DNA of 64,000 bases from Linanthus parryae (lineage: Eukaryota; Streptophyta; Magnoliopsida; Ericales; Polemoniaceae). Positions within the stretch are counted from its first letter, which is position 1; every line of letters begins with the position of its first letter. Below the pieces are notes generated by a model, which worked only from the letters and a program-made list of their open reading frames with translations, was not told the origin of the DNA and made no database searches. Below are positions 32,341 through 61,733 of this stretch, in pieces. A program made the translations under genes and the position numbers. The DNA is taken from the NCBI GenBank assembly GCA_023055425.1, contig JALGPY010000010.1, forward strand, positions 17,457,363 to 17,521,362, read 5' to 3'.

Positions 32341-32464
32341 GCAAGAGAAAGAACAGTGAAAGTACTTATTTGTCGGCTTTGATTTTTCATCTATTTCAGG
32401 TGAAAAAGGTTAACAAAGTCATGATGACTTGTGAATTTTGTTGAGAGACACTAAGAAAATACTA

Positions 32465-33380: not shown

Positions 33381-33541
33381 TACACCGTGGTACTGGTAGC
33401 CTACAATGAGGCTCAGTACTTTGGCTTGTACCTTTATCCGGACTTGTCCTCTCACACTAGTGTACTCCCATATTTTCTCAAGCATGTTATGGTTGATTTG
33501 ATTTGATGCAACGTGTCACTACTTTATGACCTTAATTGGTA

Positions 33542-33800: not shown

Positions 33801-33802
33801 TA

Positions 33803-39601: not shown

Positions 39602-40229
39602 TGTAGATAGTGCTTTCTGAGCTGACAGATCTTGGCCACGTGGCAACCATCCAGCACACCATATTGTGCTCCACACACACTGGATCACCAGCCGCGCTGA
39701 TCCATGTGGGGGCTGCGAGACAGAGCCCTCGCATACCACTGCACGGGACTTGTAGGGACTTAGTGGTTTGGAGGCTAGAGTAAGTCATGTCGCGTGCGAG
39801 CCAAGCCCGCGCGTGACCTTTAGTAACTGCTTTTGAGAGATTTATGGCACGAGCTCCTTAAACCCGGTCAATCCGGTCAAACCCGGTCAACCTCGTAACA
39901 GTTCCGGTATTCGCGCATAACGTGCTGTAACGGTCCCTATATAGGCGGACGAACGTGCCGTTGCGGTTAAGCTAATTAAGCCGCCATTGATGGGTGCATT
40001 AACCACACTGCAACGGTCACATTCTCCGTTATATATAGGACGTTAACCTTTCCATACAAAGGAGGACACACTAGCCATACGCGGAAGCTCTGCCAAGCCT
40101 CTGTCTCTCTCTCAGACATTACTACTGCCTTACTCTCTCCCTACACACAACCCAACTCTTCCTGTGCCATCTCTGATCCTCTACTTACGGTGTACACGGA
40201 GGTCTCCCCGCCGGAATCTCTTGTGCACA
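39602..40229 (+). repeat. Tat 5' LTR
   Basis: 628 bp, TGTAGATAG...GTGCACA. Candidate TATA boxes are CTATATAG at 39938 and TATATATA at 40030. GTAACGG/CAACGG words recur upstream of them. Confidence 0.93.
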
Positions 40230-40232
40230 TTT

Positions 40233-40250
40233 TGGTGAACCCGACGTGAA
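40233..40250 (+). other. Tat primer binding site
   Basis: TGGTGAACCCGACGTGAA begins three bases after the LTR and starts with the TGG expected to pair with a tRNA CCA end. I did not assign the tRNA species. Confidence 0.65.
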
Positions 40251-40269
40251 CTTACCAACAAAAGCAACC

Positions 40270-42882
40270 ATGTCTCAGGAGGATGATATCAGCAACAGAT
40301 CGCCTTCCACCGAAGCTGCCTCAGGAGAGGAGACTCGCCGCACTCCCACGACCACCGGTGAGGCCCCGACGCTAGAATCCTTGGACGCCACCATCCAAGG
40401 TCAGGCGAAAGCCCTCAAAGCTCAATCTGCGCAGTTAGAACGGATCATGGCTGTCTGGGGGACTCTTGCACCGAACCCTACGCAAGCCGCCGCCGTTTCT
40501 CCGGGAGGGGGAGCCCCTACCGCTCCAGGACTGGGAGTGTCAACCACACCTCCCAACCCTAATCTGCAGACTCCACCGGCGACTACGCAGCTACCTTCAA
40601 TCCAAGGGTCAACAGCTCAAATGTTGCCTCTCACTGCTCTTGCTCCTCAGCCTCCGGCTCTGGTACCTAACCTGGCTTCACAATATCCCTTGCCTCCCCC
40701 AACGGAAATCTGGGGCAATGCGAACTGCCAATATGTCCCCAATCCTCCGGCGGCATACGTGTCGCCTCCGCCTGCGGCAACCCCTCCTCCTGTTACCGAG
40801 GGAAACATTCCAGAATGTATGACGTCCCTGCAGAAGCGCATGGACACTATTCTGGCTCACCAATCGTTCGCGGATACCATCATCCCGAAGCTAGACAACG
40901 ATCCAACTATCCCGCGAGAGATCTATCTCATGCCTAACCCGGTGGGGTACAAGGCTCCAAAATGGGACAAGTTCGAAGATGTCAACGGAAAAGCTCATGA
41001 ACATGTCATGCGTTTCATCGATGTCATGGGGCCGTATGGAGCTGATCCCAAACTGCTGATGCAAGAATTCCCGAAGTCTTTGGGAAACGTGGCGTACAAG
41101 TGGTACAGGACGTTGGAAGCTGAGTCCGTCAAGACTTGGGACGACATGGTCCAAAAGTTCTACACCAAGTTCTTCCAGATGGAGGAAAAGATGACAATGA
41201 TCCACCTCTCGCGGATGTATCAGAAGCGCGAAGAGGACGGGATAAATTTCATCAAGAAGTTCAGGGCGAAGTCCTTGGAGTGCAAAGATCCGATGCTCGA
41301 AAGTCGGCTCGTAGAGATATGCCTGCAGTGCATGCAAGATGAATACAAAGGTATGCTCATCAACCTGCAAACACCTACGTTTTCAAAGCTAATCGAATGC
41401 ACGAAGAACATCGAGCCTATAGTGGAGAGGCAGAAAAAGAAAAACGCTCCGGAGCGATCTTCGAGCGGTACTACCTACAAGATTGGGAGATTCAGTTACA
41501 AGAGGGGACGCGAAGCTGAAGTCAATACAGTTTCACCCCAGAAGCAGGCGAAGATTGTGAACTTCGACGCACCACCTCTGCCATGTTCGGTGGAAGAAGC
41601 AAGCGACCTCTGCAGGCAATGGCGCAAGGACGGTGTCCTACCGCCGCTCGAGAAGGCACCCTCCAAAGAGATGGTGAGGGACCCGAAGTGGTGTGAGTAC
41701 CACGGCAAGGTCATGCATCCCACTGCGGACTGTAAGAAGCTCATGATTGTATTCAACCAAAAGATGAAAAACGGCGAGCTGATCGTCAGCGATCACAGGA
41801 AGGCTGTGCGCAATAATCCACTTCCTGCCCACGCAGAGCAAGACTCGAAAGGTAAAGAGGTCGCCATGATCTCGATTGTAGATCTGGAAGAAGTCGCAGA
41901 GGATGGTCTACCCATCATTGCCGAAGTCCATGACGATGAGGACTACAACATAGACACGGAGGATGAACGTGCCGACCAGATGAAGGGGTCGCACGGCTTC
42001 AACAGATTCTTCGACGAGATGAACTTCTCGAAGAAATGCCGGACAGAAATGACGAAAGCAATCTTGAGGATAGCGGAGGACTACGAGGAGGATCTTGTAG
42101 TCTCCAACGGGAAAGTCATCCGGGCGTCTCGCCCTACAGAAAAGATTATGACCTTTTCTACCAGCGACAAAAAGACAGATGCGAGCCACCAGAGGCCTCT
42201 GTATGTGACGGCCATCATCAATGGCGTCGGGTTCAAAAGAGCATTCGTCGATGGAAGAGCAGCGGTCAACGTCGTTTCGCTTCACACACTGAAGCTAGCA
42301 GGGATCCCCGAGTACAAGATTGTCAGGCGTCCATCTCCGCTGATGGGATTTGGAAGCGACTCCAGAATGACGATAGGATGGATCCGCCTGGGCGTCCAGA
42401 TCGGCAAAATCAAGTGCTCAGCGAAGTTCTATGTCATAGATGCGAACACTACGTATCACGTGATCATAGGCCGAGCCTGGATTCATCGCTTTGACGCGGT
42501 CCCTTCAACAGCTCACCAAGTCATGAAAGCTATCTGGAACGACAGAATAGTCGAGATACCGGCTTCAACGAATCCATTCAATATGGATGAAGCGCATCTC
42601 AGCGAGGCGGTGTGGTTCACCGAGATGGCGGACGAGCAAACACCAGGACCATTCAACCCTACTCCTTTACCCCTATGGGAAGATATCAAGGATCAGTCAC
42701 CTGCGGGAGTGATGGTGACAAGGGAGGATGCCAAGGAAAAGCCGCCCACACGGGGAGAGGCGCCGCGAATTGCTTACCAACGAAAGAACGTATATACTAT
42801 GAAGAGAATAACAAAGCATGACCCTGAAGGCAAAGAGATAGAGAGTTTCTACGCCAACGGGAAGAAATGCTATCGCATTTGA
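40270..42882 (+). CDS. Tat gag-protease polyprotein
   Basis: 870 residues from ATG 40270 (context AACCATGT); the longer frame to 40246 lacks an ATG. The first 200 residues are Pro/Ala-rich and low complexity. The retrotransposon gag (capsid) domain follows at about residues 235-390, including PKSLGNVAYKWYRTL and FYTKFFQMEEKMT. CEYHGKVMHPTADC near 480 fits a C-x2-H-x4-H-x4-C knuckle. The aspartic protease lies at about 645-760, with FVDGRAAVNV in place of the usual D-[GS]-G motif and IIGRAWIH near its end. The frame ends in TGA at 42880, and the pol frame follows in the same register. It would form the particle shell and process the polyprotein. Confidence 0.88.
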   Translation: MSQEDDISNRSPSTEAASGEETRRTPTTTGEAPTLESLDATIQGQAKALKAQSAQLERIMAVWGTLAPNPTQAAAVSPGGGAPTAPGLGVSTTPPNPNLQTPPATTQLPSIQGSTAQMLPLTALAPQPPALVPNLASQYPLPPPTEIWGNANCQYVPNPPAAYVSPPPAATPPPVTEGNIPECMTSLQKRMDTILAHQSFADTIIPKLDNDPTIPREIYLMPNPVGYKAPKWDKFEDVNGKAHEHVMRFIDVMGPYGADPKLLMQEFPKSLGNVAYKWYRTLEAESVKTWDDMVQKFYTKFFQMEEKMTMIHLSRMYQKREEDGINFIKKFRAKSLECKDPMLESRLVEICLQCMQDEYKGMLINLQTPTFSKLIECTKNIEPIVERQKKKNAPERSSSGTTYKIGRFSYKRGREAEVNTVSPQKQAKIVNFDAPPLPCSVEEASDLCRQWRKDGVLPPLEKAPSKEMVRDPKWCEYHGKVMHPTADCKKLMIVFNQKMKNGELIVSDHRKAVRNNPLPAHAEQDSKGKEVAMISIVDLEEVAEDGLPIIAEVHDDEDYNIDTEDERADQMKGSHGFNRFFDEMNFSKKCRTEMTKAILRIAEDYEEDLVVSNGKVIRASRPTEKIMTFSTSDKKTDASHQRPLYVTAIINGVGFKRAFVDGRAAVNVVSLHTLKLAGIPEYKIVRRPSPLMGFGSDSRMTIGWIRLGVQIGKIKCSAKFYVIDANTTYHVIIGRAWIHRFDAVPSTAHQVMKAIWNDRIVEIPASTNPFNMDEAHLSEAVWFTEMADEQTPGPFNPTPLPLWEDIKDQSPAGVMVTREDAKEKPPTRGEAPRIAYQRKNVYTMKRITKHDPEGKEIESFYANGKKCYRI

Positions 42883-42894
42883 AGGCGCGCGGGG

Positions 42895-45800
42895 ATGTCC
42901 TCACACGGGCATGGGGATATCCCTGGGCAAATCAACCAAATCGAGCAGATTGTGGTAACGGAAAAGCCAATGCAAAGCGCTCCAGACGAGAAGCTCAAAG
43001 AAGCACCCGAATGCATGGAAGACAGACACAGACCACAGAAGCAAGAGCTAAAAGAAGTGTTCCTAAGCCCGAACGAAGAAAAGAAGAGGCCAGTCTTCTT
43101 AAGCGCGGACCTCACAAGCGAGGAGGAGCAAGGACTACTGCAGCTCCTGAATGAGTACAAAGACGTGTTCGCATGGGAGTATGATGAGATGCCCGGACTG
43201 GACACAAGCATCACCATACACCGGTTAGATATCATCCCGGGGTCTAAGCCGGTAAAACAGGGCACAAGAAGCTTCAGGCCGGAGCTTAACGTGAAGATCA
43301 AACAGGAGATTGTCAAACTCCTGGACGCCAGGTTCATAGAACCGAATCACCATCCCACATGGCTGGCCAATATTGTGCCGGTGGTAAAGAAGAATGGACA
43401 GCTTCGCATCTGCGTGGACTTCCGAGATCTCAATCGCTTCTGCCCCAAGGACGATTTTCCGCTTCCCAACATCGATTTGTTCATCGATTCGACAGCGGTT
43501 CATCGCATGTTCAGTTTCATGGACGGCTTCAGCGGGTACAACCAGATCAAGATGGACCCTGAAGATGCACGGAAAACCGCATTCATCACCCCAGTGGGAG
43601 TGTTCAACTACACGGTGATGCCCTTTGGTCTCAAAAACGCGGGTGCAACCTACCAGCGGGCCATGATGGCCCTATTCCACGACATGATGCACAAAGAAGT
43701 GGAGTTTTATGTAGATGACCTCGTGGTTAAATCCAAGCAGGAGGCAGATCACCTGGCAGATTTGCGGAAGGTGTTCAACAGATGCAGACGCTTTCAGCTG
43801 AAGATGAACCCTATGAAATGCACATTTGGGGGAACGTCAGGGAAATTCTTGGGATGTGTGGTACATCGTCAAGGAATCGAGCCTGACCCTGCGAAAGTTT
43901 CAGCCATCATCAGCATGACTCCGCCGCATGACCAGAGTGCCTTTAAGACATTCTTGGGGAAGCTATCGTATCTGCGAAGATTCATCCCAGCGATTGCCGA
44001 GATTACTTTCTGTTTCAGTAATCTTCTCAAAAAAGATGCCGCATACAGCTGGACTCCGGAGCACGAAGCTGTGTTCGGGATGCTAAAAGAACTGCTGACG
44101 TCTTCAAAAATAATGATCGCACCTCAGTTGGGATCACCGCTTTTGCTGTATCTGACGTCCACGAGGAAATCCATAGGAGCACTTTTGGCTCAGGAGTACG
44201 AGGTTCAAGAAAGGCCCATCTACTACATCTCTCGCATATTTCAGCCCGAAAAATCAAGGTACACGGACATTGAGCGTCATTGCCTTGCCCTATTCTTCAT
44301 AATAGAGAAGTTGAGACACTACTTTGCGTCGCACAAAGTGGTGGTGGTTACAAAGAGTGATCCTATACGATATTTTCTAACTCACACTACTCCTGAAGGA
44401 AGATTGGCAAAATGGTATATGACCATTTCCCAATTTGATATCACATGCGTTCGGCCGCGGGCGATCAAGTCGCAGGCGGTTGCGGATTTGTTGGCACAGT
44501 TCCCTGACAACAGTCATGAGCCTGTGATCGAAGAAGAACTCGAGGGACCTGAAATCTATGAAGTCGACGTACCCTATTGGACACTCCACTTCGATGGCTC
44601 GTCGACAAGGAAATGCGGAGGCATTGGGATAGTCTTGACCAAACCAGATGGAGAGGTCATACAGATGTCCGCCAAGCTTGACTTCGCAGTCACTAACAAC
44701 GAAGCAGAATATGAGGCTCTCATCGCGGGACTTCGTGCAGTGAAAGCTTTGGAAGTAAACAACTTGACAGTCATGGGGGACTCCAAGATAATTGTCAAGC
44801 AAGCCTCGGGCGAGTACGGTTTGAAGGAGATTAATCTTCTGTCCTACCGGAATTTGGTACAAAAGCTGGTGCAGCAATTCTGCGACGTTAGGTACGAGCA
44901 CAAGCCCCGAGCGGACAACAGGCATGCAGACGCTTTGGCCACCTTGGGATCCAAAGTTAGTACCGACAAATGTCCCGCAAGAATCTCGATCGAAGTGCGA
45001 ACATCGTCGGCGTTAACAGAAGGCGCATGCGACGATGAACACATTGACGATGCAGACTGGAGAAAGGCGATCTTACAAGCTATCGTAGAAGGCACAAGCA
45101 GCGAGAGCTGGGCACTCACAAAGGGGTATTGCATACTTGAAAACACCCTTTACTACAAGGGCCCTGGCGGAATACTTATGCGATACGTCTCCGAGCAAGA
45201 GGGACAACTGTTGCTAGAAAAGATTCACCAACATGCTTGCGGAGAAAGCGAAGTTTCAATCTATCGAAATGCTCAGAGATATGGCATTCACTGGCCAGAC
45301 ATGTCAACAGCCGCAACACTAATACAGGGAAAGTGCGAGAGTTGCGCACTGATCAAGGATTCTTTACTCATTGCTCTAACCGATGATGATGCGGAATGGA
45401 GGAAACCACACTTCGATTTTCTCACCCAGGGAACCATACCCGAAGCGAGGAAAGAAGCTGAGAAATTGAAGAGGAAAGCATCCCGATACGTGGTAGAAGA
45501 GAACCTGGTTTGGAGAAGAGGTCATGAGGGCAACTTGCTGCGATGTTTAGACGGCAAGGAAGCACAAGAAGTCATGGACCTTTCTCATCAGGTGGAACAC
45601 CAGGGAGGTGCGAAATTATGCAGGCAACTCCTCTCAATTGGATATTTCTGGCCCACGATGGAGGCTGATTGCCGCGCCAAAGTACGATGCTGCCAGGTGT
45701 GTCAATTCAAAGGGAACCTAGTGCACGCTTCTGCTGTAGATCTACACGCATTGGGAACGCCATGGCCATTTCACACATGGGCGTTGGATTTCATTGGTCC

Positions 45801-46467
45801 CATCCGACCAACTTTGCATGGGAATCATTTTATTCACACCGCAACTGAGCTGTTCACCAAGTGGGTAGAAGCGATACCACTAAAGACAGCGAATGCGCTA
45901 GCTGTGGTCAATTTCATCCAAGAAAGCATCATATGCAGGTTCGGAATACCCAACACCATCCTTTCAGATAATGGTACTCCTTTTGTAAATCGCCAGGTGG
46001 CTGCGAAGCTAGTAGAATACAACATCAGGCAGATATGCTCCACCCCCTACTACCCGAAGGGGAACGGGCAGGCCGAAGCAACCAACAAAACGCTGTTGAG
46101 GATCTTGAGCAAGATGGTCGCAGATGACCACAAGAAGTGGGCTGATTCTCTAAGCATAGCCCTGTGGGCTTACCGGACTTCTCCAAGGACACCCACAGGG
46201 GTCTCACCGTTCCTCCTATGCTATGGGGCTGAGGCTGTGGTACCTGCGGAGGTGAAGGTTAATTCGGCAAGATTGGCCTTCCACGCATTGTACGAAAATC
46301 AACGCGATCATGACTTAGTCTTGCTGGAAGAAAAGCGAGAACAAGCTAAAAGGACACACAAGCGGTATCAAGAAAGGATCGCTCGTGCGTACAACAAAAC
46401 AGTCCAACGTAGAGATTTCGCAGTTGGAGATTTGGTCTTGCGCGCATCTGACCATTGCATGCGATAG
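42895..46467 (+). CDS. Tat pol: RT, RNase H, archaeal-type RNase H, integrase
   Basis: 1190 residues from ATG 42895, in the same frame as gag and 12 bases after its TGA. RT has LRICVDFRDLN and the catalytic YVDD near residue 272. The first RNase H follows at about 400-520. The second RNase H, with HFDGSSTRKCGG, NNEAEYEAL, GDSKIIVKQ and HADALA, spans about 560-690. Integrase has an HHCC finger (HQVEH ... CCQVC, about 897-945), DDE residues in WALDFIG, LSDNGTPF and GNGQAEATN, and a C-terminal GDLVLR segment. A TAG at 46465-46467 cuts off the last ~50 codons, which otherwise continue in frame to 46620. All catalytic residues are kept, so this copy was recently active. Confidence 0.92.
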   Translation: MSSHGHGDIPGQINQIEQIVVTEKPMQSAPDEKLKEAPECMEDRHRPQKQELKEVFLSPNEEKKRPVFLSADLTSEEEQGLLQLLNEYKDVFAWEYDEMPGLDTSITIHRLDIIPGSKPVKQGTRSFRPELNVKIKQEIVKLLDARFIEPNHHPTWLANIVPVVKKNGQLRICVDFRDLNRFCPKDDFPLPNIDLFIDSTAVHRMFSFMDGFSGYNQIKMDPEDARKTAFITPVGVFNYTVMPFGLKNAGATYQRAMMALFHDMMHKEVEFYVDDLVVKSKQEADHLADLRKVFNRCRRFQLKMNPMKCTFGGTSGKFLGCVVHRQGIEPDPAKVSAIISMTPPHDQSAFKTFLGKLSYLRRFIPAIAEITFCFSNLLKKDAAYSWTPEHEAVFGMLKELLTSSKIMIAPQLGSPLLLYLTSTRKSIGALLAQEYEVQERPIYYISRIFQPEKSRYTDIERHCLALFFIIEKLRHYFASHKVVVVTKSDPIRYFLTHTTPEGRLAKWYMTISQFDITCVRPRAIKSQAVADLLAQFPDNSHEPVIEEELEGPEIYEVDVPYWTLHFDGSSTRKCGGIGIVLTKPDGEVIQMSAKLDFAVTNNEAEYEALIAGLRAVKALEVNNLTVMGDSKIIVKQASGEYGLKEINLLSYRNLVQKLVQQFCDVRYEHKPRADNRHADALATLGSKVSTDKCPARISIEVRTSSALTEGACDDEHIDDADWRKAILQAIVEGTSSESWALTKGYCILENTLYYKGPGGILMRYVSEQEGQLLLEKIHQHACGESEVSIYRNAQRYGIHWPDMSTAATLIQGKCESCALIKDSLLIALTDDDAEWRKPHFDFLTQGTIPEARKEAEKLKRKASRYVVEENLVWRRGHEGNLLRCLDGKEAQEVMDLSHQVEHQGGAKLCRQLLSIGYFWPTMEADCRAKVRCCQVCQFKGNLVHASAVDLHALGTPWPFHTWALDFIGPIRPTLHGNHFIHTATELFTKWVEAIPLKTANALAVVNFIQESIICRFGIPNTILSDNGTPFVNRQVAAKLVEYNIRQICSTPYYPKGNGQAEATNKTLLRILSKMVADDHKKWADSLSIALWAYRTSPRTPTGVSPFLLCYGAEAVVPAEVKVNSARLAFHALYENQRDHDLVLLEEKREQAKRTHKRYQERIARAYNKTVQRRDFAVGDLVLRASDHCMR

Positions 46468-46620
46468 GCGGCTCACCCAAAGTTCGCAGCCAATTGGGAG
46501 GGACCCTTTGAAGTCACAAAAGTCTTTGACAGTGGCTACTGCAGCATACGGAGGTTGCACGGAACGACCTCAACCCCAAGCTCAGTCAACATGCGCTGGA
46601 TTAAGAAGTACTATCCTTGA
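46468..46620 (+). pseudogene. Integrase C-terminal tail beyond a stop
   Basis: After TAG 46465-46467 the same frame reads KFAANWEGPFEVTKVF and NMRWIKKYYP before TGA at 46618. This is the usual end of Tat integrase, so the TAG is a late nonsense change or is read through. Confidence 0.75.
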
Positions 46621-46828
46621 CTTCTCTCATTTTATGCGTTTTATTACAACGTTGCTTTATGCTTTGTATAGCTATGATTCGCACAATCTTCTCTCCCATA
46701 TGAGAAAATTGTAATCTCATCTCTCCCATATGAGAGTACTATAATAAAAGACTTCTCCCAAATGAGAAGAACTTTATGCTTCTAGCCGTTTATATTGCTT
46801 CATTTGGTTTGTTATTACTGTTAGCAAA
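46621..46828 (+). other. Tat 3' non-coding spacer
   Basis: CTCTCCCATATGAGA-type short repeats (46690-46770) precede the 54-bp repeat array. Confidence 0.5.
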
Positions 46829-47345
46829 AGCCTATCCGCCGCGATAGCAACCTACTCAAACGCGATCTTAATTGATCTTCTAAGCCTATCTGTCACGATA
46901 GCAGCCTATGCAAATGCGATCTTAATTGATCTTCTAAGCCTATCTGTCACGATAGCAGCCTATGCAAAAACGATCTTAAGTGATCTTTCAAGCCTATCTT
47001 CTACGATAGCAGCTTATGCGAACATGATCTTAATTGATCTCTTAAGCCTATCTGCCACGATAGCAGCACATGCGAAAATGATCTAAATCCATCTTTTAAG
47101 CCTATCTGTTACGATAGCAGCCCATGCGAACATGATGCGATAGCAGCGTTATACAAGTGCGATTTAAAATTCGTTGCTAAGTCTATCTATTGTGATAGCA
47201 ACATTATGCAAAATGATCTTAAGTGATCTACAAAGGTCTATCTAATGAGATGGCACCTGCACTTTAATCTGGAGTAAATCTCAAGCCTATCTGCCAAGAT
47301 AGCAAAGCTGCGTGAACATGATCTCGAACGATCTAAGAACATATC
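46829..47345 (+). repeat. 54-bp tandem repeat array in the Tat 3' region
   Basis: About nine diverging units of ~54 bp begin AGCCTATCTG(T/C)CACGATAGC and include GATCTTAATTGATCT. The first two or three are nearly identical, and later ones drift and change length. Tandem repeats in this position are known in Tat-lineage elements. Confidence 0.85.
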
Positions 47346-48694
47346 TGCGAATCTATGCGACAGATAGCAAATACAAAGTGTGTATATAGCACCACAGAAG
47401 GCGAAATCTGCCAACACGGGTGCGAAATTGTAATTTGTTGTAACAAAACAGCAAATCATACAAAGCAATTTATCATTATGAGTCAAAAGGACTTACAATG
47501 TATCTGTCTAGATAGCAGCTTACAAGCGAAAAGCTCAAAACTAACTGTGCAGCCAACATGGCTTAAAATGCATTCAAAAAAGTAACTTACAAGCGAGAAG
47601 TTACACATCGAGGGAATCCTAACTAAAAAGGGATGAACCTAACGGTCCTAACACCCGCTATGCGATACACAGATCTGCGGCCAAAGATCTGTCGTAAGTA
47701 GGGTCTTTCTATAAAATGAACGTCCTACAAGAGCCACAAGAAGCCATACGTTCAAGATCCCAGTATTTGACAAGGCCCTTATCTGATCAGTACCCCATGA
47801 GATGCGCCTGGGGAACCACCGGTTCCGGCGTACAACATGCAAACAGAAACTCCGAATGACAGGGGGTCCTTGTCCGTGGGAACGAGCACAACGGCTCGCC
47901 ACCCTGAGCTCACGAACGTGGGGGCAGTAAGTTCTCCTCCAGGGATGCTGGAGGAGAATCCCACCGTTCATTACGAGTCGGTAGCAAAGTCAGTACGACG
48001 CTGCACCTCGCCGGGAGGCGGCCGGAAACATGACCTGCAAACATAATAGACGAAGAAAATTCTTCGAATAAACATGAGGTATTATCTCTGTCTTCTTTAT
48101 AAAGGTTACAAAGACCAATAAGCCTTATAAAGCGGATCTTGGAAACTATTTCTATAGCACAAAGCGCAAACTCAGGTCTCATGACTTGAAGTTGCCATGA
48201 ATCAACGGAAAATAAGCGTTGAAGCCAGCAGTCGTAAGGACTCACGGCAAAGCACATTTTTCGGGATGAAGAACCCAAATAACAATAAGCAGGGGTTTAT
48301 ATAGACCTTGTGGAGACTCTTCAGTTGCCAAGATGAGTCAGCAGAATTTGAAAAGAGGGTAAGGTCAATCACTTACGCCTTGAAAAGCGGTAACAATCAA
48401 TTACCCTACTAAAGGCTACGACGATTCAGTTGCATATCCTAATTAATGACGGATGGTCATGATTCGGATGGACTTCCCAAGGAAAGCGTGCTTATCTAAT
48501 GAGCAATTAGCGCGAAAATCAAGGCAGAGTATCAATTGCTGACGTCATAAATTGATGTGCACAGAGACATTCTAGCAAATCCCGGAAAGGGCAAAACGGG
48601 CACTTTGCTTCTTTTGAAAAAAAAAGGGGGAGAAACCCTAGCAACATTACATTAATGTCTCAGCTATTTATTTGTTACTTTTCAAATTCAAAAA
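47346..48694. other. Tat 3' region between repeats and antisense gene
   Basis: No credible frame on either strand. AATAAA on the minus strand (48667-48672) lies 22 bases past the antisense stop codon and could end that transcript. Confidence 0.5.
48667..48672 (-). terminator. Poly(A) signal for the antisense gene
   Basis: AATAAA on the minus strand, 22 bases downstream of the TGA of the antisense gene. Confidence 0.55.
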
Positions 48695-51600
48695 TCAAAG
48701 TAAACACTTGATCAAGGAGTCATGAGGGGTGAACTGACGGCTCAGATTCTCCACCTGCTCCACTTCCTGCTTCAATTGCTCGCACTTGGCATTCATCTCA
48801 TGATAGAGCTTCATAGCCTCTTCAACCTTTTGCTTTTGTTGCTCTACCTTCTGCTTCTCAGCTGCGAGGTTTTGGTGGCCGAGTTTCAAAGTTACGGCTG
48901 CGCGAATCAGGGTAACTCTCTTCATAAGAAACTTGAAACCCAGCCTGCCTTGAACTTTGGCGAGAATATTTTGGCACATGCCAAAAAGCAATTCGGCACT
49001 CTGAGGAGAAATGGTCGCAGGCGTGGCCCCAGACAGCTGCTCCAAAATCCAAATGGCCTCGGTAAGATGCAGCCTCCTGTCAAAGGGCCCTATCTCCAGA
49101 GACCTCCCAAATGACTGGGGGTAGGCGAGGCCCATCCGAAATAGCCAATCCACGTCGGCTTGCTTCAAACCTGAAGCAATAGCAAAGCCAAGTCAACTAT
49201 CAAATTCGCAAATGAAGAATACGAAATGCAAACAGCAAAACACGACTTACCAGTTCCTTCAAGGATCTCATGAAGAGAAGGAATGCGCATTGCTGGGGTG
49301 GTCGAAGACTGTCCTCGCTCCATTGCCTTTTTATCAGCCGCGAGCTCTAACTCCTCATAGTCAGGAGGAAGAGTATAAGCCGCACCAGTTGCGATTGCTG
49401 TCCCGACCTGCGAGCCCCAAAAGCTCCACGCAGGAAGAGGTGCCGCCGACTCAGTCATCGCTGGAAGCGTAGTAGCAGCCGAAGCTGCTTGGCGAGGGAC
49501 ACTCTCAGATGCGGTAGCATCAACAGCACTTGTTCTCATTTCCTCAACACTAACATGGATATCTTCCTCCATTAGCACAGTGTCAGCCTCGACATCATCG
49601 GAAAGTTCGATGATGTCCTCAAAAGGCTCTCCTGCATATTCAGCAGCTGCGACGGGCTTCTCGGTATGAGAACTCGGAGCCGGGACATAGGACGCAGAAG
49701 GTCGACTCCTTTTCTCCAGCACGGGTTCATCAGCATTGCCTGCGAATCAAAATGCGATAGTAAGAGGTAACTTGTATCGTATGATATTTTATTATCTTTG
49801 CTAAGCTAAGAGAAAGCACCTCCATGCGAAGTTGGGATTTCCATATCCTCGTCATACGCTAAGGACGTGGAACCTCGCTCTATTAATGTGCCTTCATTAA
49901 GCATGTCCTTAAGATGAGCGTGAACTGGGGCGTGAAGAAACCGGTCATGATTATGTTTCGAGTTGCTAAGTCTAGTTCATGCATATCGTTCAAGTGATTA
50001 CCTGAGGGTTCACCGCACTTGCCTACTAGCCAACGGCAAATGTCAACTTTTGACACACCATGCTTTAATGCACTGACAATAACATCTCGATAAGTTACTG
50101 CGAGATTAAAAATCTCACCTTCATTGCCGCCTGCGATTTCTTCAAAATCCGCTTGGGCTTGCTCCAAAGCTGCTGCATCCTCTTCTGGAGCCACATCCTC
50201 CTCCTCAGCTCGAGGAACCACCTCTTCGGGAAGCAGATCTTCCTCATCGGTTGGACGCACTAAGTCGTCAACATGCTGTTCTTCGAGGCTCCTCTGCCTC
50301 ACACGCTCGAGCTCCTCCTCTTCTCGCTTTCTTCTCCTTTCAGCAGCTTCCGCAGCTGCCTTCCTAGACTCGGCGAGAACGTCCTCGCTTATGGGTTCGT
50401 CAGAAATACCAGAATGAGCACCCCTCTTCTGTCTCTTGGCCAAAAGGCCACTGATGGTCTCTTCATCATCATCATCTGCGAAGAAATGACTCGTTCAAAA
50501 TCAAGTTGAAAAAGAGTTACGATAATGAGAGGGGAAACGAGATGGAGATACCTCCTGATTCTTCCTCATGTATCACATTTGCTCTTTCTTCTTCTTCTTC
50601 ATCTCCTTCTCTTGGCTCCCGCCTCTCCTCTTCTTCCTCATGGCCGAATGGAACGAAGGTCTCTACTGCGAGCTCCTTTCGCGTTTTACTGGGCATGCGA
50701 CCTTTGCCTTTGTCCTTGGCAGAAAGGGACCTCACCGGGGGAGAAGTTGGAGCGCTTCTAGGGGAAGAAATTGTAATGCCCCTTTGCCTGGGTCTCTTCG
50801 CTCTTTGCGCGGCAGTCGCTGGAGGAGACGAATTATCTCCAGGAGGAGACAAGGCCGGAGCATTGTCTATTAGCGAGTCAGCAAAAGCATTCATGACCTC
50901 GCGAATCCTGGTTTCGACCTCAGGGTCCATCCTCGATGCTAGCAGGGACGTCTTTCCTTGTCTTCTTGTGGTAACAATGGTGTTAACTAGCGACTTGGAA
51001 CGGTCGACAGATGCAAACCTCCGCACATGGCACTACAGCAAGCAGTGTAGAATGAAGATGTCAATATGTGAAAAAAAAAAGAAAGCTTAGCGCATGCAAA
51101 AGAAGTTGCTTACCTTGGCAAAAGTCTTGCTATATCTGATGACATGCGAGTCACCTTTCTTAACTGCGGCGATCTTTTCGTCCAGAATGATGGCAGGGCA
51201 CAAATGGTTCTCATGATCCAACAATGAGTAGCAACCATATTCAAACTCGTCCGGACTGCAATTGGGACGAAACGGAAAAGAGTTTCTTTTAATCAAAGGA
51301 GCTCTGCTTGGCTGGGGGGCCGACTGCATCTCAAACCTTGTCTGCTGGGCGTGCCAGTATGCGAGCCAGTTCTTAGAACAACCACCTTCACGGTTACCCG
51401 CAGGTTGCTCAAAGGGAAGGTTGCTCATGAAGACTGTTTTGCACTCCTTTGTCAACAAGCGCTTATAGCAGCCTCTGATAATGGACTGTGGCCAGATTGA
51501 GGGTGCCACTGCATCAAAGCCGAACTGGGGAGAAACTCGAGTGGGGTCAACATCCACAGTAATTCTTTCGTACCTTGGCGCGAGCTCACGAATATGCTCT

Positions 51601-52994
51601 GCGAGAGCAGGTAGGGAACCTCGCAGGCACCAGCAAAAGAATTCACGATAGCGCTCGTGGAAATGCTCTCCACCTTCGAAGAGAAGCTCTTCTGAAAACA
51701 CAACACCCTTAGAAGGGTACAGCTTTGGAAACCTTCGCACGTTTTCAACACGCATGGCATAGGGCCTGGCTATGAACTCTCGCCGATTGTCGCATATCAG
51801 ACTCCAAACGCACTTGGTATTGTTCGTTCCGAACCACCTTGCAGCTCTGCCGCTGTTACGCTCCTTTACCGCGCCTGGGGGACACCACTTGTTGGGCTTA
51901 GAAGCAGTTGGGGCATAGGAAGGCCATCGCTCAAAGACCCACATCGTCAAGAAGGCAATGTTGACGAAAGTCAGTATGTCGAGGCGGCCGCGCGATTCTT
52001 TCATATCCATAACTAGCTGATCCAGTCTGTAGTACAGCGTACCCAAGACCAAGGGTCCGAGTGCGACTTTCTGGCCAAGGGCCAGTTTCACAGCAAGCGG
52101 CAAAACGTGATAGAAAACCCCACCGTGTGGGTGACCATCGATTAAGTACCTCGACAACCAGGCACAGAGGAAAGCACAAAGGGTCAAGTGATAACCCTTA
52201 CCCTCCACATAATTCTTGGTCTCTGGGTCTTGACTCAGAAGCTTCTTGGTAATGCTGCTGTTCGCGTAATAACGGAAGAAATACTGCACCCATTTATTCC
52301 AAGTATTCTTCGCAGACGTGTCAACCAACTGCCAGTCAGGAAGGGCTTTTGTAGTGGTCCACCGGGTGGAGATTTTCTTTACCTCTGACAAGCATTCCTC
52401 CATCTGCGTGTACAAAGCAATCTCCGCATCCGTCCTCAAGGGACTCAAAGGGTCCACCTCGCCCATGGGAGACAGATCGTACAGCATGTGCACGTCCTCG
52501 AGCGTGAGAGCAGCCTCAAACTCAGCAAAGTGAAAAGTATGAGTCGCAGGCGAGTACCGGGAAAGAAGGTTTAGAAGCATGGATTGGTCCAGCTTCACGG
52601 CAGCACCCTTCATAGCACGAACGGCGAAGTATACGCTGACCTCGTTGAGAGTCACAGCATGATTGGTCAACACATGGTCAATCCATTCATCCATGTAGTC
52701 CAATTTCTGAACAAAAGCTTGGGTGGAAATCGCGGCATACGGGAAGTACCCATTTTCGATTCCCAATCGAACCACGTCCTCGGAGCCAATCAAATCAAGC
52801 AAGGCTGAGTTAACTGGAGGGGTTAATGTTAACAATCCCTCATTGGGGACAGAAGCAGGCAGTTTCTTTGCCTTAACCCTCGCATGGTAGAAGTCCTTGC
52901 CACCAAGGTAGGGGGCTTTTCCCCATAGAGCTTGTGGAAGATCAGGTATTTCTTCGTCCTCCTTGGTGGGTCTAGTTCCTTTTCTCTTTGCCAT
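48695..52994 (-). CDS. Antisense plant mobile domain protein, six coding exons
   Basis: Exons on the minus strand: 52994-51114, 51032-50552, 50475-50002, 49924-49820, 49739-49251, 49170-48695. All five introns (81, 76, 77, 80 and 80 bp) are GT...AG. The exons sum to 3906 bases, giving one uninterrupted 1301-residue frame, with phases 0,1,1,1,1 agreeing at every join. Exon 1 carries a plant mobile domain (about residues 20-560), seen in HTFHFAEFEAALTLEDVHML and later conserved Trp/Arg blocks. Exons 2 and 3 are acidic and disordered with a charged helix (AAAEAAERRRKREEEELERV). Exon 6 ends in a coiled coil (KQKVEQQKQKVEEAMKLYHE). The start ATG lies two bases after a strong 3' splice site (TTCTTGCTCTTCCGCAG), implying an upstream non-coding exon. 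Host PMD proteins such as MAIN act in gene regulation and TE silencing; the role here is unknown. Confidence 0.85.
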
Positions 52995-52996
52995 TC

Positions 52997-53312
52997 CTGC
53001 GGAAGAGCAAGAAAAAAGGGGGGAGAAATATGCACACACTTCAGTTTGAATTCTGAGATTCAAGATCTATGGGAAGAAAGACGAACAGTTTCTGGTACCA
53101 ATTTCAAAAATTAAGGTTGGAAATTGTTTGCATTATCAGGGATTTCAAAACCCTACATCCAAGGTCCTTATCATTGAAGGATTAAATCAAAATTGGGTTC
53201 AAAGATTGGAGCTTCTTCACAAGTTTCCAACAGATAATATGTCATGGGTTTGCAGATCCAACACAGTTCAAAGCATACATCGGGATGTTAAACAAAATTA
53301 AACAAGACCAAC
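52997..53312 (-). other. Possible 5'-UTR intron of the antisense gene
   Basis: The acceptor (pyrimidine run then GCAG at 53000-52997) is strong. A candidate donor AACAAG/GTTGG ends its exon at 53313. The donor choice is a guess. Confidence 0.45.
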
Positions 53313-53726
53313 CTTGTTTTGGTAAAGCTTGCTTGGATGCGCACAGTTCAAGAAGACGATTGACAAGAGCGAACTGGTGATTGATTATTTGAATCTGCTC
53401 TCGAAGACTTCCGGGTATCATTCACTTTAAGAGAAAGAAGTGATGCTTTGCAACAATGGAGAGTACAGAGTACTTATCCAAAAACAATGAAGGGTTGCGT
53501 CCTTTCAGTAGTCGAATCGCAACCGTCACCGTCGAATCGCGCAATCACAGGACAAGCTGACGTCACGCCTAAAACCCTAAAGGCCATACGGCACGACTCC
53601 AGGGGTTTTAGGTCATAATGGCACGCACGGGGGCTGAATTTACTCGTATTTGAATTGGTGCGTGGCGGCGACGCGTATGTTGGTTTCCGCGCATGGAAGT
53701 CTATGCAGCTCTGAGTCTTCACGCGC
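53313..53726 (-). promoter_or_regulatory. Putative promoter region of the antisense gene
   Basis: The region contains TGACGTCA (53558-53565), a perfect bZIP palindrome, and AAACCCTAA (53572-53580), a telobox, six bases apart. No clear TATA box was seen. The assignment rests on position upstream of the antisense gene. Confidence 0.4.
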
Positions 53727-53736
53727 AAAAAGGGGG
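53727..53736 (+). other. Tat polypurine tract
   Basis: AAAAAGGGGG lies four bases before the 3' LTR. Confidence 0.85.
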
Positions 53737-53740
53737 CTAA

Positions 53741-54361
53741 TGTAGATAGTGCTTTCTGAGCTGACAGATCTTGGCCACGTGGCAACCATCCAGCACACCA
53801 TATTGTGCTCCACACACACTGGATCACCAGCCGCGCTGATCCATGTGGGGGCTGCGAGACAGAGCCCTCGCATACCACTGCACGGGACTTGTAGGGACTT
53901 AGTGGTTTGGAGGCTAGAGTAAGTCCTGTCGCGTGCGAGCCAAGCCCGCGCGCGACCTTTAGTAACTGCTTTTGAGAGATTTATGGCACGAGCTCCATAA
54001 ACCCGGTCAATCCGGTCAAACCCGGTCAACCTCGTAACGGTTCCGGTATTCGCGCATAACGTGCTGTAACGGTCCCTATATAGGCGGACGAACGTGCCGT
54101 TGCGGTTAAGTTAATTAAGACGCCATTGATGGGCGCATTAACCACACTGCAACGGTTCCGTTATATACAGGACGTTAACCTTTCCATACAAAGGAGGACA
54201 CACTAGCCATACGCGGAAGCTCTGCCAAGCCTCTATCTCTCTCTCAGACATTACTACTGCCTTACTCTCTCCCTACACACAACCCAACTCTTCCTGTGCC
54301 ATCTCTGATCCTCTACTTACGGTGTACACGGAGGTCTCCCCACCGGAATCTCTTGTGCACA
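53741..54361 (+). repeat. Tat 3' LTR
   Basis: 621 bp. It differs from the 5' LTR by about ten substitutions and a 7-bp deletion near 54157. The second TATA-like motif is changed to TATACA. Confidence 0.93.
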
Positions 54362-55206: not shown

Positions 55207-56510
55207 ATGCCCAGATTGCTGCGCGAACTGGTGCCACCACTTGAAAACCCTGAAAAACTTTTCAGAGAGCAAAATCGCAGACACCGAGTCACGATGTCTG
55301 AGCACGAAGAAAACACGCTAACAGAAGCAAGAACACCCACAGGACAGGAGCAACGCACTCCAGCACAGATGGCTCTTTACATTGAGGAGCAGATAGCAGC
55401 AGGCTTTGCTGCCAGGAACAATCAGAGGACTTACAACAGGTCTGTGAGGGCGATAGTAGAAAACTTCGAAGTTCCTACCAGAGGACATCAACCAGCTATC
55501 GTAGTGCCACCAATCACAGCAGAGCACTTCGATCAGAAATCATCTACTATCCAAACCGCCCAGACTCATTGTCCTTTCAATGGGAAAGCAGATGAAGATC
55601 CAAACGACTTCCTCGGAAAGTTCGAAGACTACTGCAACAAGATTAAGTATAGAGGAGTTGAAGCGGATACGCTGAAATTAATTCTATTCCCATACTGCTT
55701 ATTCGGGACAGCAAAAGACTGGCTAGAAGCAAGACCACTAAGGTCCATCACAACCTGGGATGGGTGTGTTACTGATTTTTTGGCAAAATTCTACCCCGCA
55801 TCTCGTGTTATCAAGCTGCAGAGTGAGATCTTATCCTTCAAACAGAAGATGGGAGAGACGGTGGTAGATGCATGGGACAGGTTGATGAGACTCGTTAAAA
55901 GATGCCCCAATCACGGCTTCGGGGACGCGAAAATTCTGCAAGTATTCTACCATGCTCTTGACAGGGAGAATGCTGACAGGATTGACAGGGAAGCTGGGGG
56001 TAATTTTCTGTACCATGTGGATGAAGATGGAGCCTACGAGCTGATGAAACAATTAGCCAAACAGGACACTCGTCTGTTTGATGACCGCAGGCTCACAACA
56101 CTAGCAGAACCATTGGCTGATGATAGAATTGATAATCTCACAAAAGTAGTACAAGACTTAGTCAAAAAGGTGTATACAGAAAAGAAAACCGTGGCAGCAG
56201 TGGACGAGCCTGACCTTGATGCAGCGATTCAGGAGCTTCAGGCCGAAGATGCCAATTATGTTCAGCAGCAGTGGGATCCAAGCCGCTACAGACCAGGCAC
56301 ACGTGACCATCCAGGGTTCTGCTACGGAAACCCCAATGCATCAGTTTATGCACCAGGGTTCCAGCACAGGCCACAGGCACAAGAGACAGCACCAGCAAAA
56401 CAAGCACCAGCAGCACAACCACAGCTAAATTTATCACAACAACATTTTGATTCCTATATGGAGAAATTTAATAAGCATTGGGAAGCTAGATTTTTCGCAG
56501 ATGGAATCAT
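55207..56510 (+). pseudogene. Athila gag
   Basis: From ATG 55207 the frame carries an N-terminal arm (about 120 residues) and a capsid-type domain. The domain includes FNGKADEDPNDFLGKFEDYC, FGTAKDWLEARP, FLAKFYPASRVIKLQSEILSF and FYHALDRENADRIDREAGG, up to about residue 300. A Gln/Ala/Pro-rich tail follows. Near 56490-56510 a frameshift moves the continuing gag-protease sequence into the next frame, which opens at 56447. The original frame then runs as nonsense to 56730. Gag would build the particle. The break separates it from the downstream enzymes in this copy. Confidence 0.82.
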
Positions 56511-59500
56511 TAACTGCTGTAAGCCAAATGAAAATTGCTATCCGCAACCTGGAAGTACAGAATGGTCAGCTTGCACAGAACCATGCAGAACGAGCCCCAG
56601 GGAATTTACCATCAAATACAGTGAACAATCCACGCGCTCAAATCAATGCTATCACAACTCAGAGTGGAATCGCACTGCAGGATCCGCCGTATTCCAGTCA
56701 TGCACGTGCAGAAAAGTCAAAGAACATTGAACACGAAGTGTTTGACAGGGAAGACAGCTCAACCGCTAACCCTCAACAAAGGGGTTCGGTCGAACAGGAA
56801 GCAGGGCAGACTAATGAGGGTAACCCAGAAACAGTGCCAAGCTCTAAAGAGGTGCCTTACCCTCTGAAGACACGTAAGAGAGATGACAGCAAAGACTACG
56901 CCAGATTTATGGAGGTATTCAAGCAATTACAGATAAACATACCTTTCGCCGAAGCACTAGCCAAAATGCCTACTTATGCAAAATTTCTCAAAGACATATT
57001 GTATGGAAGAAGGCGGATGAGCGACTTCGAAACAGTAAATCTGACGGCAGAAGCGAGCAGCTGTGTGAAAAACGGTCTACCACTGAAGAAAAAAGACCCT
57101 GGCCGTTTTGTTATTCCAGTAACTCTGGGCAGTGCATACACAGGAAAAGCCTTATGCGACTTGGATGCCAGCATTAACCTGATGCCACTAACCATCTTCA
57201 AAAGTCTGGGAGTCGGAGAACCGAGGCCAACAAGAATTATGCTTCAAATGACTGACAGATCCTTAAAACCTGCATATGGAGTCATTGAAGATATCTTGGT
57301 AAAAGTTGGAGATCTTATTTTTCCAGCAGATTTTGTGATACTGGATATGGAGGCAGGAGAGGTCCCACTAATTTTAGGTAGACCTTTCCTAGCAACTGGT
57401 GAAGCCATTATCAACTGCAAAAGTGGAGAGCTGTCCATGCAAATCAACGAAGAAAAAGTGAAATTGAACGTCTTCAAATCTCTCAAACTCCCTGATCATT
57501 ACGGTCATGAACACTGTTTTGCAGTGTAAGTAATTGATGATCTGGAAAGTGAGGAGATGGAAAATTTATGGGGAGAATTTGAGGACATATACCCAGAGGA
57601 TACAGAGGAGCACCAAGCTGAGCATATCATGAGAACAGAAAGCTGGGTCACCCTATATAAGGATGAAGGAGGCGAACAGAAAATGACATTGGTCCCATCA
57701 CTTCAGGAACCACCAATCCTGGAGTTGAAACAGTTACCAGACCACCTCAAGTACGCATTTATTGGTGAAAATAATACTCAGCCAGTAATTGTTTCATCTC
57801 TTCTATCTCAGGAACAGGAACAAAAGCTGCTGGATGTACTTCGAGAGCATAAAGAAGCTATCGGATGGACAATTGCTGAACTGAAGGGAATCAGTCCTGA
57901 TTACTGCATGCACAAAATAAGAATTGAAGAAGGAAAGAAGCCAGTCATCCAACCTCAACGGAGATTAAACCCAATCATGAAAGATGTGGTACGTAAGGAG
58001 GTCATGAAGTGGCTAGAAGTAGGGATTATATACTCCATATCAGACAACACCTGGGTTAGTCCTGTCCAGTGTGTACCAAAGAAAGGGGGTATTACCGTAG
58101 CACAGAACGCTAATCAGGAACAGATCGCCCAGCGCACTGTCACTGGCTGGCGAATCTTTATGGATTATCGGAAGCTGAACGACGCGACACTGAAAGACCA
58201 CTTTCCGCTGCCATTCATGGACCAGATGTTGGACAGATTGGCTCACCATGCTTATTATTGCTTTCTCGACGGGTACTCCGGATACAACCAGATCTATATA
58301 AATCCGGAAGATCAAGAAAAGACGACGTTCACCTGCCCATACGGAACGTTTGCTTTTAGACGAATGTCATTTGGATTATGTAACGCTCCGGCGACATTCC
58401 AAAGATGTATGATGGCCATATTCTCTGACATGATAGAGAAAAATCTGGAAGTTTTCATGGACGATTTTTCGTTATTTGGGGACAGTTTTGATGATTGTTT
58501 ATACCATCTGGCCAGAGTTCTGATTCGATGCAGAAAGACTAACCTGGTACTCAACTGGGAGAAATGCCATTTCATGGTTACTGAAGAAATAGTGCTGGGA
58601 CACAGGATTTCCAGCAAAGGCCTAGAAGTAGACAGAGCAAAAATAGAGGTGATTAAGCAGCTACCATATCCGACCATAGTGAAGGCAATCAAGAGTTTTT
58701 AGGGCCATGTAGGGTTTTACAGAAGGTTTATCAAAGATTTTTCCAAAATTACAAAGCAATTATGTAATTTGTTGGGAAAAGATGTGCCATTCATATTTGA
58801 CGAAGCCTGCAAAGAAGCCTTTGACGTACTCAAAGACAGGCTGACAACTGCACCCATTATCACAACGCTAGATTGGACCCTCCCGTTCGAGCTAATGTGC
58901 GACGCCAGTGATTACGCAGTGGGCGCAGTGTTGGGACAGGGAAAGGATAAAGTATGCGGTGTAATTTTTTATGCCAGCATGGTCCTGAATGAAGCACAGG
59001 TTAATTATGGTATTACAGAAAAGGAGCTGCTGGAAGTCGTTTTTGCTCTGGATAAGTTCAGATCCTATCTGGTAGGTTCAAAAGTCATTATCTTCACGGA
59101 TCATAGTGCGTTGAAATATTTACTGGAGAAAAAGGATGCAAAGCCAAGGCTGCTGCGTTGGATACTGCTGATGCAGGAATTCGATGTCGAAATCAAGGAT
59201 AAAAAGGGAGTAGAAAATGTGGTAGCTGATCATCTTTCTCGCATGGAAAACCCAACAGAAGAATTGTTACCAATTCAAGAAAATTTCCCAGATGAGCATA
59301 TCATGAAGATCAAGACCAACAGACGACCCTGGTATTACGCAATAGCCAATTATTTGGTCAATGGAGCACTCCTTGAAGACATCACCCCTTGGTAGAAAAA
59401 GAAGTTTATTTCAGAATGCAGAAACTATTTCTGGGACAATCCTTACCTGTTTAAACAAGGGGCAGATAATATTCTTCGACGTTGCATCCCATGTCATGAG

Positions 59501-60615
59501 ATTTTAGAGGTAATTCAGCACTGCCACTCAGCACAGTGTGGGGGACACTTCAGCGGTCTGAGAACAGCTCACAAAGTGCTGCAGTCAGGATTTTTCTGGC
59601 CAACAGTTTTCAAGGATTGCCATGACTATGCACAAAGTTGTGATCGCTGCCAGCGTACAGGAAATATCTCCCAGCGAAATGAGATGCCCATGACACTTTG
59701 GCAGGAGGTTGAGCCTTTTGACGTTTGGGGTATTGATTTTATCGGTCCATTTCCTTCTTCTCTGGGAAATCTCTACATCTTACTGGTAGCAGACTACGTG
59801 TCAAAATGGGTGGAAGCTATGGCCTGTCAGAAGAATGATGCAGCAGTTGTGGAACGATTCCTCAAACGCAATATTTTTACCAGATTCGGAACACCAAGAG
59901 TCATGGTCAGTGATGAAGGCTCTCATTTTATCAATAAAGTCTTTGCCAAGGTTCTAAAGCAGTATGGGGTGTCTATCCATAAGGTGTCACTGCCTTACCA
60001 CCCTCAGGCAAATGGGCAAGCAGAGGTTTCAAACAGGGAGATAAAAAGCATACTGGAAAAAACTGTGAATCCTGGACGGAAGGACTGGTCATTAAAGCTG
60101 GATGATGCGCTCTGGGCATACAGAACTGCTTATAAAACCCCGCTGGGAATGTCCCCATACCAGCTGGTTTTTGGTAAAGCATGTCACTTACCAGTAGAAT
60201 TGGAGCACATAGCATACTGGGCAATCAAGCAGCTTAATATGGATCACGGCTTATCTGGAAACAAAAGGAAGATGGCACTCCTCGAACTATAGGAATTTCG
60301 TAAAACAGCTTATGAGAGTGCCAAAATCTATAAAGAAAAAACGAAGAAGTGGCATGACAATAGCATTCTACCAAAGAAGATAGAAATTGGGCAGAAGGTT
60401 CTCCTTTACAACTCAAGGATGAAATTCTATCCAGGGAAGCTGCGCTCAAGATGGTCTGGACCATTCATTGTGAAAGGCATTACATCATGGGGAGTGGTGG
60501 AGCTGGAAAACCCAAGGGATAATACAGTTTCAAGGTGAATGGAAACAGAGTCAAGCCATACAGGGATCCTCAGGAGATCCTAGAGGTAGAAGCGATCTAC
60601 CTCGACCTTCCCTGA
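56447..60615 (+). pseudogene. Athila protease-RT-RNase H-integrase, interrupted
   Basis: One register carries the rest of gag, protease (CDLDASINLMP near 57160; the family usually has DLGAS), RT (RRMSFGLCNAPATFQRCMM and the catalytic FMDD near 58456-58467), RNase H ([17 protein letters not shown], 58890), and integrase (HHCC finger near 59520-59660; DDE in [25 protein letters not shown]). In-frame stops lie at 57527 (TAA), 58700, 59393 and 60290 (all TAG). A one-base shift near 60530 precedes the final segment ending at 60615. The FMDD catalytic aspartates and integrase triad are kept, so decay is recent or mild, but the copy cannot make a full polyprotein. Confidence 0.85.
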
Positions 60616-60809
60616 CCATAAAAGAGGTAACAAAGTCGGGCTGTCGACTGTAAATCACAAGCGCTGGTTGGGAGGCAACCCAACGTAGAATAGTTGTTTT
60701 TATAGTTAGTTATTTAATATAAAATGTTCATAATATGAGTGAAAAGTGAGGAAGAGGGGTTTAATGTTGAATTTAGTGTTTCAGGAAACATTCGGAAGTT
60801 TGAAAGGCA
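60616..60809 (+). other. Athila post-pol spacer with conserved hairpin
   Basis: GTTGGGAGGCAACCCAAC at 60667-60684 folds with a 6-bp stem and loop AGGCAA. An alternative pairing GGTT/AACC is also possible. The same 18-mer is in both internal regions of the three-LTR element. Confidence 0.65.
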
Positions 60810-61345
60810 TCCGTTCAAACGCATACCTGCGTTCAAACGCAGAAAGCGCGTTCAAACGCAGAAGGACCACCCACTGCAGAAACTCAGAAAAAATGGCTAA
60901 CAATTATCCGTTCAAACGCAGACGATGTGCGTTCAAACGCATACCAAAAGAAGCAGATTTCCAGCTAACACATGTGCGTTCAAACACACGGGGTGCGTTC
61001 AAACGCAACAGATAAAAACTGAAAAATCCCAAGGAAGTGCGTTTAAACGCAGCAGGTGTGTCTGAACGCAGAAAACAATCAACAGAAGTTTCTAGAGAGA
61101 CGACATGCGTCCAAACGCACGGGGTGCGTTCAAACGCAACTCATCCGAAGATTGCAGACACAAGGGGTGCGTTCAGACGCAGTGCATCTGCGTTCAAACG
61201 CATATCATCAAACCCAGAAATTCAAAAAACTATAAGTTATGCGTTTAAACGCACGGGGTGCGTTCAAACGCAGTTCAAGATAATTCACAATTTTTCCAGA
61301 AACATAAAGCACTGCGTTTAAACGCAGAAGGTGCGTTCAAACGCA
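60810..61345 (+). promoter_or_regulatory. Array of seventeen 14-bp palindromes upstream of the env-like ORF
   Basis: Seventeen copies of TGCGTTCAAACGCA or close variants (centre CA, TA, TG or CG) occur in 536 bp. Several are paired as palindrome-CGGGG-palindrome. Substitutions fall mainly in the centre while half-sites are kept. The last copy ends 75 bp before a TATA box. The same motif forms the LTR array at 38879-39184. Confidence 0.85.
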
Positions 61346-61419
61346 CAATCGAGCGGGATCAGAAAATTTTGAAAAATTTTGAATTTTAGGGGCCATTCTG
61401 CAATTTCTGAAAGTTTGCC

Positions 61420-61427
61420 TATATATA
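61420..61427 (+). promoter_or_regulatory. TATA box upstream of the env-like ORF
   Basis: TATATATA is followed by a CT-rich leader (61470-61500) and the ATG at 61734, as for an independent transcript. Confidence 0.55.
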
Positions 61428-61733
61428 CTGTACGGGTGAAAGTGACCCATTTCACTTCAGTCAACCAGTTTTCAACTCTCTCTCTAGAAACTCTCTCTGC
61501 CCTAGCAGCCGCCAGGAGCAGTCAGCCGCCAGCAATCTCCGACTACCACCGCAGGGACACCAGACTGCCAGAAACAGTGTGGAAGTGATCACACTCATCC
61601 GATCCAAACGCATCCAGATCCGCTTCAGAGAGCAGTTTCCGGATCTGTACCCGTAAGATTCACTCCGGGTAGCCAGGTTCTGTTTTCTCTCTCTCTCTTT
61701 GCAGATTTCCATTTTTCTACTTGATTTTTTGAG
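61428..61733 (+). other. Leader of the env-like ORF
   Basis: Pyrimidine-rich, with CTCTCTCTCTAGAAACTCTC near 61476 and TCTCTCTCTCTT near 61688. No frame; consistent with a 5' UTR of about 280 bases. Confidence 0.45.

Follow-up and report, generated by a model that had tools for sequence, protein, structure and literature searches.

How can an element that is copied through RNA keep a gene interrupted by introns? Long terminal repeat (LTR) retrotransposons are expected to be intronless because they pass through RNA. The question is raised by a stretch of 64,000 nucleotides from the genome of Linanthus parryae (contig JALGPY010000010.1, positions 17,457,363 to 17,521,362; hereafter the window, numbered from its first letter), in which a complete LTR retrotransposon of the Tat lineage (39602–54361, plus strand) contains a six-exon gene on the opposite strand, between pol and the 3′ LTR. 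Our analysis makes it highly likely that this is an accessory gene of the retrotransposon family, spliced from an antisense transcript, selected during replication of the family and giving a probably nuclear protein of 1301 amino acids.

An earlier note on this DNA had proposed six exons, five GT-AG introns of 76–81 bp and a single frame of 1301 codons, and this structure was reconstructed exactly. The exons, all on the minus strand between 52994 and 48695, join into one frame of 3906 nt (1301 codons plus the stop) that contains no internal stop and ends in TGA. Exon 1 (51114–52994, 627 codons) is followed by intron 1 (51033–51113, 81 bp), exon 2 (50552–51032), intron 2 (50476–50551, 76 bp), exon 3 (50002–50475), intron 3 (49925–50001, 77 bp), exon 4 (49820–49924), intron 4 (49740–49819, 80 bp), exon 5 (49251–49739), intron 5 (49171–49250, 80 bp) and exon 6 with the TGA stop (48695–49170); the intron phases are 0, 1, 1, 1 and 1. 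The note had also judged such a set very unlikely by chance. This is borne out by the longest minus-strand open stretch, which has 659 codons whereas 1000 first-order Markov resamplings of the region yielded none longer than 282, and by the maintenance of frame and splice sites across copies.

A search of the same genome (1.51 Gb) with exon 1 gave 17,390 first-look candidates (such first-look numbers are not copy counts), the best 70 of which were scored. All 70, window included, match exon 1 over 627 residues at 94–100%, and in 45 of these copies, chosen by exon-1 similarity, exon 1 is stop-free. The 20 siblings ranking next were retrieved, each as a stretch of about 6.2 kb, and aligned over the gene and on across the 3′ LTR, 12 of them in one piece across about 6.0 kb. 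Exon 1 adjoins the 3′ LTR side in the window and in 20/20 siblings. The window copy and 19 of these siblings retain all five introns in position; the remaining one, L049, is truncated after intron 1. Splice dinucleotides are canonical in 195 of 200 cases (window and 19 siblings, L049 left out); the five exceptions, one of which is GC, are each private to one copy. Variants shared by at least two copies, which arose mostly during replication of the family, affect 0 of 18 splice positions as compared with 87 of 344 intron-interior positions (the intron-2 acceptor was left out for its repeat). At that acceptor, odd TG and CA readings arose because a GAT repeat had misled the alignment; in the window and 19 siblings the sequence itself reads AG.

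The introns have thus survived retrotransposition, as the earlier note had supposed. It had further held that random stops and lost splice sites among siblings would speak against a gene. Stops, frameshifts and the five lost splice sites do occur in single siblings, as expected because copies decay after insertion, but these losses are private and not shared.

Selection on the frame was assessed by comparing shared variants with private ones, which arose mostly after insertion, using the ratio of nonsynonymous to synonymous variation (pN/pS) in 17 of the 21 copies; L032, L035, L042 and L049 had been dropped beforehand for gaps or truncation. Exons 2–6, which had no part in choosing the copies, contain 283 shared variants (123 nonsynonymous, 159 synonymous and 1 stop; pN/pS 0.27) and 647 private ones (413 nonsynonymous, 209 synonymous and 25 stops; pN/pS 0.73), whereas the wrong frames give 1.34 and 1.15 for shared and 0.95 and 1.21 for private variants. 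The corresponding exon-1 values (shared 0.06, private 0.27) were set aside as biased because the copies had been picked by exon-1 protein similarity. Across the 21 aligned rows, divergence in exons 2 and 3 is 6.5–8.7% at first and second codon positions as against 11–14% at third positions, with 10–16% in introns; the pattern is less marked in exons 4–6 (8.7–13% versus 13–19%). Among 19 siblings, the share of indel runs divisible by three is 28/53 in exons, 26/75 in introns and 15/143 in the non-coding flanks.

Three older copies (L051–L053), which came from a nucleotide search using exons 5–6 and not exon 1, have introns 1–4 at the same positions, every donor being GT; in L052 and L053 the intron-2 acceptor is CA by alignment only. 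With codons containing gaps or stops skipped, the ratio of nonsynonymous to synonymous divergence (dN/dS) from these copies is 0.114, 0.089 and 0.086 in exon 1 (at dS 0.51, 1.43 and 0.98; wrong frame 1.2–1.5), 0.16–0.22 in exons 2–3 and 0.24–0.31 in exons 4–6 (wrong frame 0.93–1.13). Because these copies keep both the intron places and the low ratios, the intron structure and the constraint predate the present family. The conservation across sibling copies with a ratio below 1 that the earlier note had proposed to look for is therefore seen in shared variants as well as in exon 1 of older copies. Since frame and splice sites have been preserved from copy to copy, the antisense gene is a selected accessory gene and not a chance frame, and it is very probably spliced.

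Spliced retrocopies were also considered as genomic proof of splicing, and this line was dropped, as none of the best 40 of 4087 candidates obtained with a joined exon 5–exon 6 query had lost intron 5 precisely. Intron 5 is present in 37 of these 40; the three that match without a break are old decayed copies in which imprecise deletions leave 13, 25 and 31 bp where the intron would be.

The plant mobile domain (PMD) that had been proposed for the encoded protein is confirmed by a match to PF10536 (E=1.8e-26, 93.6 bits against a curated cut-off of 34.9) at residues 127–500, entirely within exon 1. Four further weak Pfam matches all fall below their cut-offs, and Transposase_28 (PF04195) gave no match up to E=1. 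Exon 1 had no match among solved structures up to E=1, and its single-sequence structure model, with a mean predicted local distance difference test score (pLDDT) of 36.8, was unusable. The middle of the protein is acidic and of low hydrophobicity, residues 701–900 being rich in Asp and Glu, and there are several short basic runs; because of these features, the protein is probably nuclear.

Upstream of the coding region, the acceptor that the earlier note placed directly before the ATG reads AG in 21/21 copies. It presumably belongs to an intron in the 5′ untranslated region (UTR) at 53002–53312 on the minus strand, the donor of which is uncertain: 53312 and 53425 are the two best-scoring among several GTs kept in 20/20 copies. 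The approximately 330 bp between the gene side and the 3′ LTR (53412–53740, minus strand) are as uniform across copies as the LTR itself, with 1.4–5.6% versus 1.2–6.4% divergence in 50-bp bins; divergence climbs to 7.7–12% at 53411–53112 and drops again near the ATG. We take this uniform stretch to be the presumed antisense promoter; part of its uniformity could be accounted for by the needs of the polypurine tract and the LTR. The motif TGACGTCA lies at 53565–53558 (minus strand) in 20/20 copies and occurs twice more elsewhere in the window.

Several observations weigh against an expressed and spliced protein-coding gene. The AATAAA that the earlier note saw after the stop is present in the window and kept in 13/21 copies only. 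The minus strand yielded no TATA box in the interval separating the 3′ LTR from the gene; inside the 3′ LTR there are two TATA-like sites. Only 5 of the 21 copies, the window and four siblings, are fully intact, and 16 are not (L049, unscored, was counted as broken). Exon indels are not multiples of three in 25 of 53 cases, and exons 4–6 are weakly constrained between near copies (dN/dS 0.38–0.69; private pN/pS 0.81). Finally, the copies were ranked by similarity and are not a random sample.

Could the constraint have another source? The antisense transcript may act as RNA, pairing with the genomic RNA to yield double-stranded RNA and small interfering RNA (siRNA) that tune or silence the element, the frame being incidental. 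The sense and antisense units do overlap, the possibility is raised in a review (PMC7264820), and 175 phased siRNA (phasiRNA) loci of tea have been assigned to PMD genes (PMC10673657). However, the constraint is on the protein: because third codon positions vary while first and second positions are held, RNA pairing alone is insufficient, and we consider this explanation improbable. Protein and antisense RNA effects could act together. A sense-strand protein encoded in the same stretch deserves hardly any credence. One sense frame does show a dN/dS of 0.15–0.20, but this low ratio mirrors the antisense third positions, and the frame has 24 stops across exon 1 (12 and 24 in the other two); because all three sense frames are stop-ridden there, no sense protein explains the constraint, and the idea was rejected. 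That a host gene or another transposon inserted into the window copy alone would agree with the multi-exon structure and with the occurrence of PMDs in host genes and DNA transposons (PMC5418596). Yet the 20 siblings align from the gene through the 3′ LTR and diverged copies also carry the gene, so that it belongs to the family; insertion into this single copy is very improbable and was likewise rejected. An ancient capture of the gene from a host is possible.

With regard to function, we tentatively favour, as the most likely role of the selected accessory protein, nuclear regulation of how the element itself is expressed or silenced, which would act through contacts like those of host PMD proteins. 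It seems rather unlikely that the protein is, along the lines suggested in the earlier note, a decoy or competitor of the host PMD proteins MAIN and MAIL or of their PP7-type phosphatase partners that weakens host silencing. The PF10536 match fits such a decoy, as do the silencing of transposons by host MAIN and MAIL1 and their binding to PP7L (PMC7156037, PMC5418596). In the published trees, however, the PMDs of elements fall into their own clades, PMD-A (PMC5418596), and because these clades are separate, partners shared with host PMD proteins cannot be taken as given.

The accessory gene could work as follows. An antisense pre-mRNA would start from a promoter that lies next to or within the 3′ LTR, and the host spliceosome would excise from it the five short coding introns and probably one in the 5′ UTR. 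The resulting protein of 1301 amino acids, with the PMD from exon 1 and the acidic middle, would probably enter the nucleus. The introns would not be lost by splicing of the genomic RNA because they are present there only as their reverse complement; the genomic RNA being unable to lose them, each new copy would therefore inherit the whole gene. Antisense orientation is thus probably how this RNA-copied element keeps its introns.

Similar antisense genes have been described. The antisense open reading frames (ORFs) called aORF-3R, such as gene23 of maize Grande and those of rice RIRE2, Silene Retand and PvRetro13, share the position between pol and the 3′ LTR, the orientation and a presumed nuclear role (PMC7264820, PMC11963269). 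Gene23 offers a precedent, with antisense transcription from its own promoter and a nuclear product (PMC7264820). In what these two reports present, aORF-3R are treated as single ORFs, whereas the window gene has five conserved introns and a PMD. Transposase_28, reported in 97% of clusters for the Retand antisense ORF (PMC11963269), is not matched by the window protein. A likeness in domain content is found in Ogre elements, 57% of which carry a PMD in an extra ORF (PMC6317226), as does the window element. The PMD-A1 and A2 groups are encoded only by gypsy elements (PMC5418596). The accounts consulted on the Ogre and PMD-A ORFs state neither intron structure nor orientation, and the likeness to the window gene lies in the domain and the element type. 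Ogre gag and reverse transcriptase ORFs are about 270 bp apart (an intron where tested), whereas those of the window element share one frame with a single TGA.

The introns of Ogre and EVADE have been singled out as exceptions to the rule that such elements lack introns (PMC12786077). They are spliceosomal introns in plant LTR retrotransposons, as in the window element, but lie in the sense direction and must escape splicing in the genomic RNA, from which the antisense introns of the window cannot be spliced. The best mechanistic parallel is HBZ of human T-cell leukaemia virus type 1 (HTLV-1), which is antisense, spliced and TATA-less and overlaps the sense unit near the 3′ LTR (PMC9822710). 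The two genes are unrelated: the window protein has no bZIP match and its gene has five coding introns as against one alternative splice, in a plant retrotransposon and not a retrovirus. In the literature searched, we found no account of an LTR element whose antisense gene has several conserved introns, which does not prove that none has been given. Within the limits of that search, the conserved multi-intron structure is the new point; for elements of this kind, both PMDs and antisense accessory ORFs were already known.

A large family that maintains a six-exon gene backwards shows how the intron limit can be avoided, and makes it possible to test cleanly, from genomic data, for selection on antisense accessory genes. 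We can imagine, with some doubt, that antisense placement is a general way for RNA-copied elements to own an intron-bearing gene and that the introns themselves are selected. If so, splicing would lend the accessory mRNA host-like export, expression and self-like marks and shield it from RNA-dependent silencing, a benefit that a sense retrotransposon gene could not keep, and numerous multi-exon 'PMD genes' in plant genome annotations would be genes of such elements. A PMD gene cannot safely be assigned to the host on the strength of its multi-exon structure. The tea PMD genes with the 175 phasiRNA loci are little expressed (PMC10673657); they may be retrotransposon antisense genes of the same kind rather than host genes.

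The carrier element itself is defined by paired LTRs, a target-site duplication and its domain order. The LTRs (39602–40229 and 53741–54361) are 97% alike, with ACATG duplicated on both sides and a polypurine tract just before the 3′ LTR start at 53741. Their Kimura two-parameter distance (K2P) of 0.0163 (7 transitions and 3 transversions in 621 sites) corresponds, at substitution rates of 1.3e-8 to 7e-9 per site and year, to an insertion about 0.6–1.2 million years ago. A gag ORF and an ORF for reverse transcriptase, RNase H, a second RNase H and integrase share one frame on the plus strand at 40270–46467, split by a TGA at 42880. Pfam places RT_RNaseH at 414–514, RVT_3/RNase_H at 563–683 and the integrase core at 958–1054 of the pol ORF, and shows no protease in the ORFs of the element. 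The second RNase H lies between the first and the integrase, as in angiosperm clades of the Tat lineage of Ty3/gypsy (PMC6317226), which upholds the earlier assignment to Tat. The antisense position of the gene within the element, likewise proposed in the earlier note, is confirmed. The TGA at 42880–42882 is present in 149 of 150 scored genome rows (ranked by similarity to the window, from 13,544 first-look candidates) and is therefore a family trait; it is probably not a lesion but a stop that is programmed for readthrough or another kind of recoding. Between pol and the antisense gene lies a tandem array with a 54-bp unit in 5.6 copies (46828–47127).

Elsewhere in the window, three near-identical blocks of about 1.6 kb, spaced 5.0 kb apart, occur at 13768–25402 with two like internal parts (99.8–99.9%). 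The arrangement looks like LTR-internal-LTR-internal-LTR of a non-autonomous element, the minus-strand ORFs of which (330–332 amino acids) have no Pfam match above cut-off. The Tat element is followed by a second Ty3 element at 55207–62939 (gag, reverse transcriptase, RNase H and integrase), and an ORF at 62139–62939 has a weak Transposase_32 match (41.3 bits against a cut-off of 45). Direct and inverted repeats of 85–260 bp cluster at 31087–33802 around a GGGTCACTTTGACCCGGTGATTTGGAT-like core.

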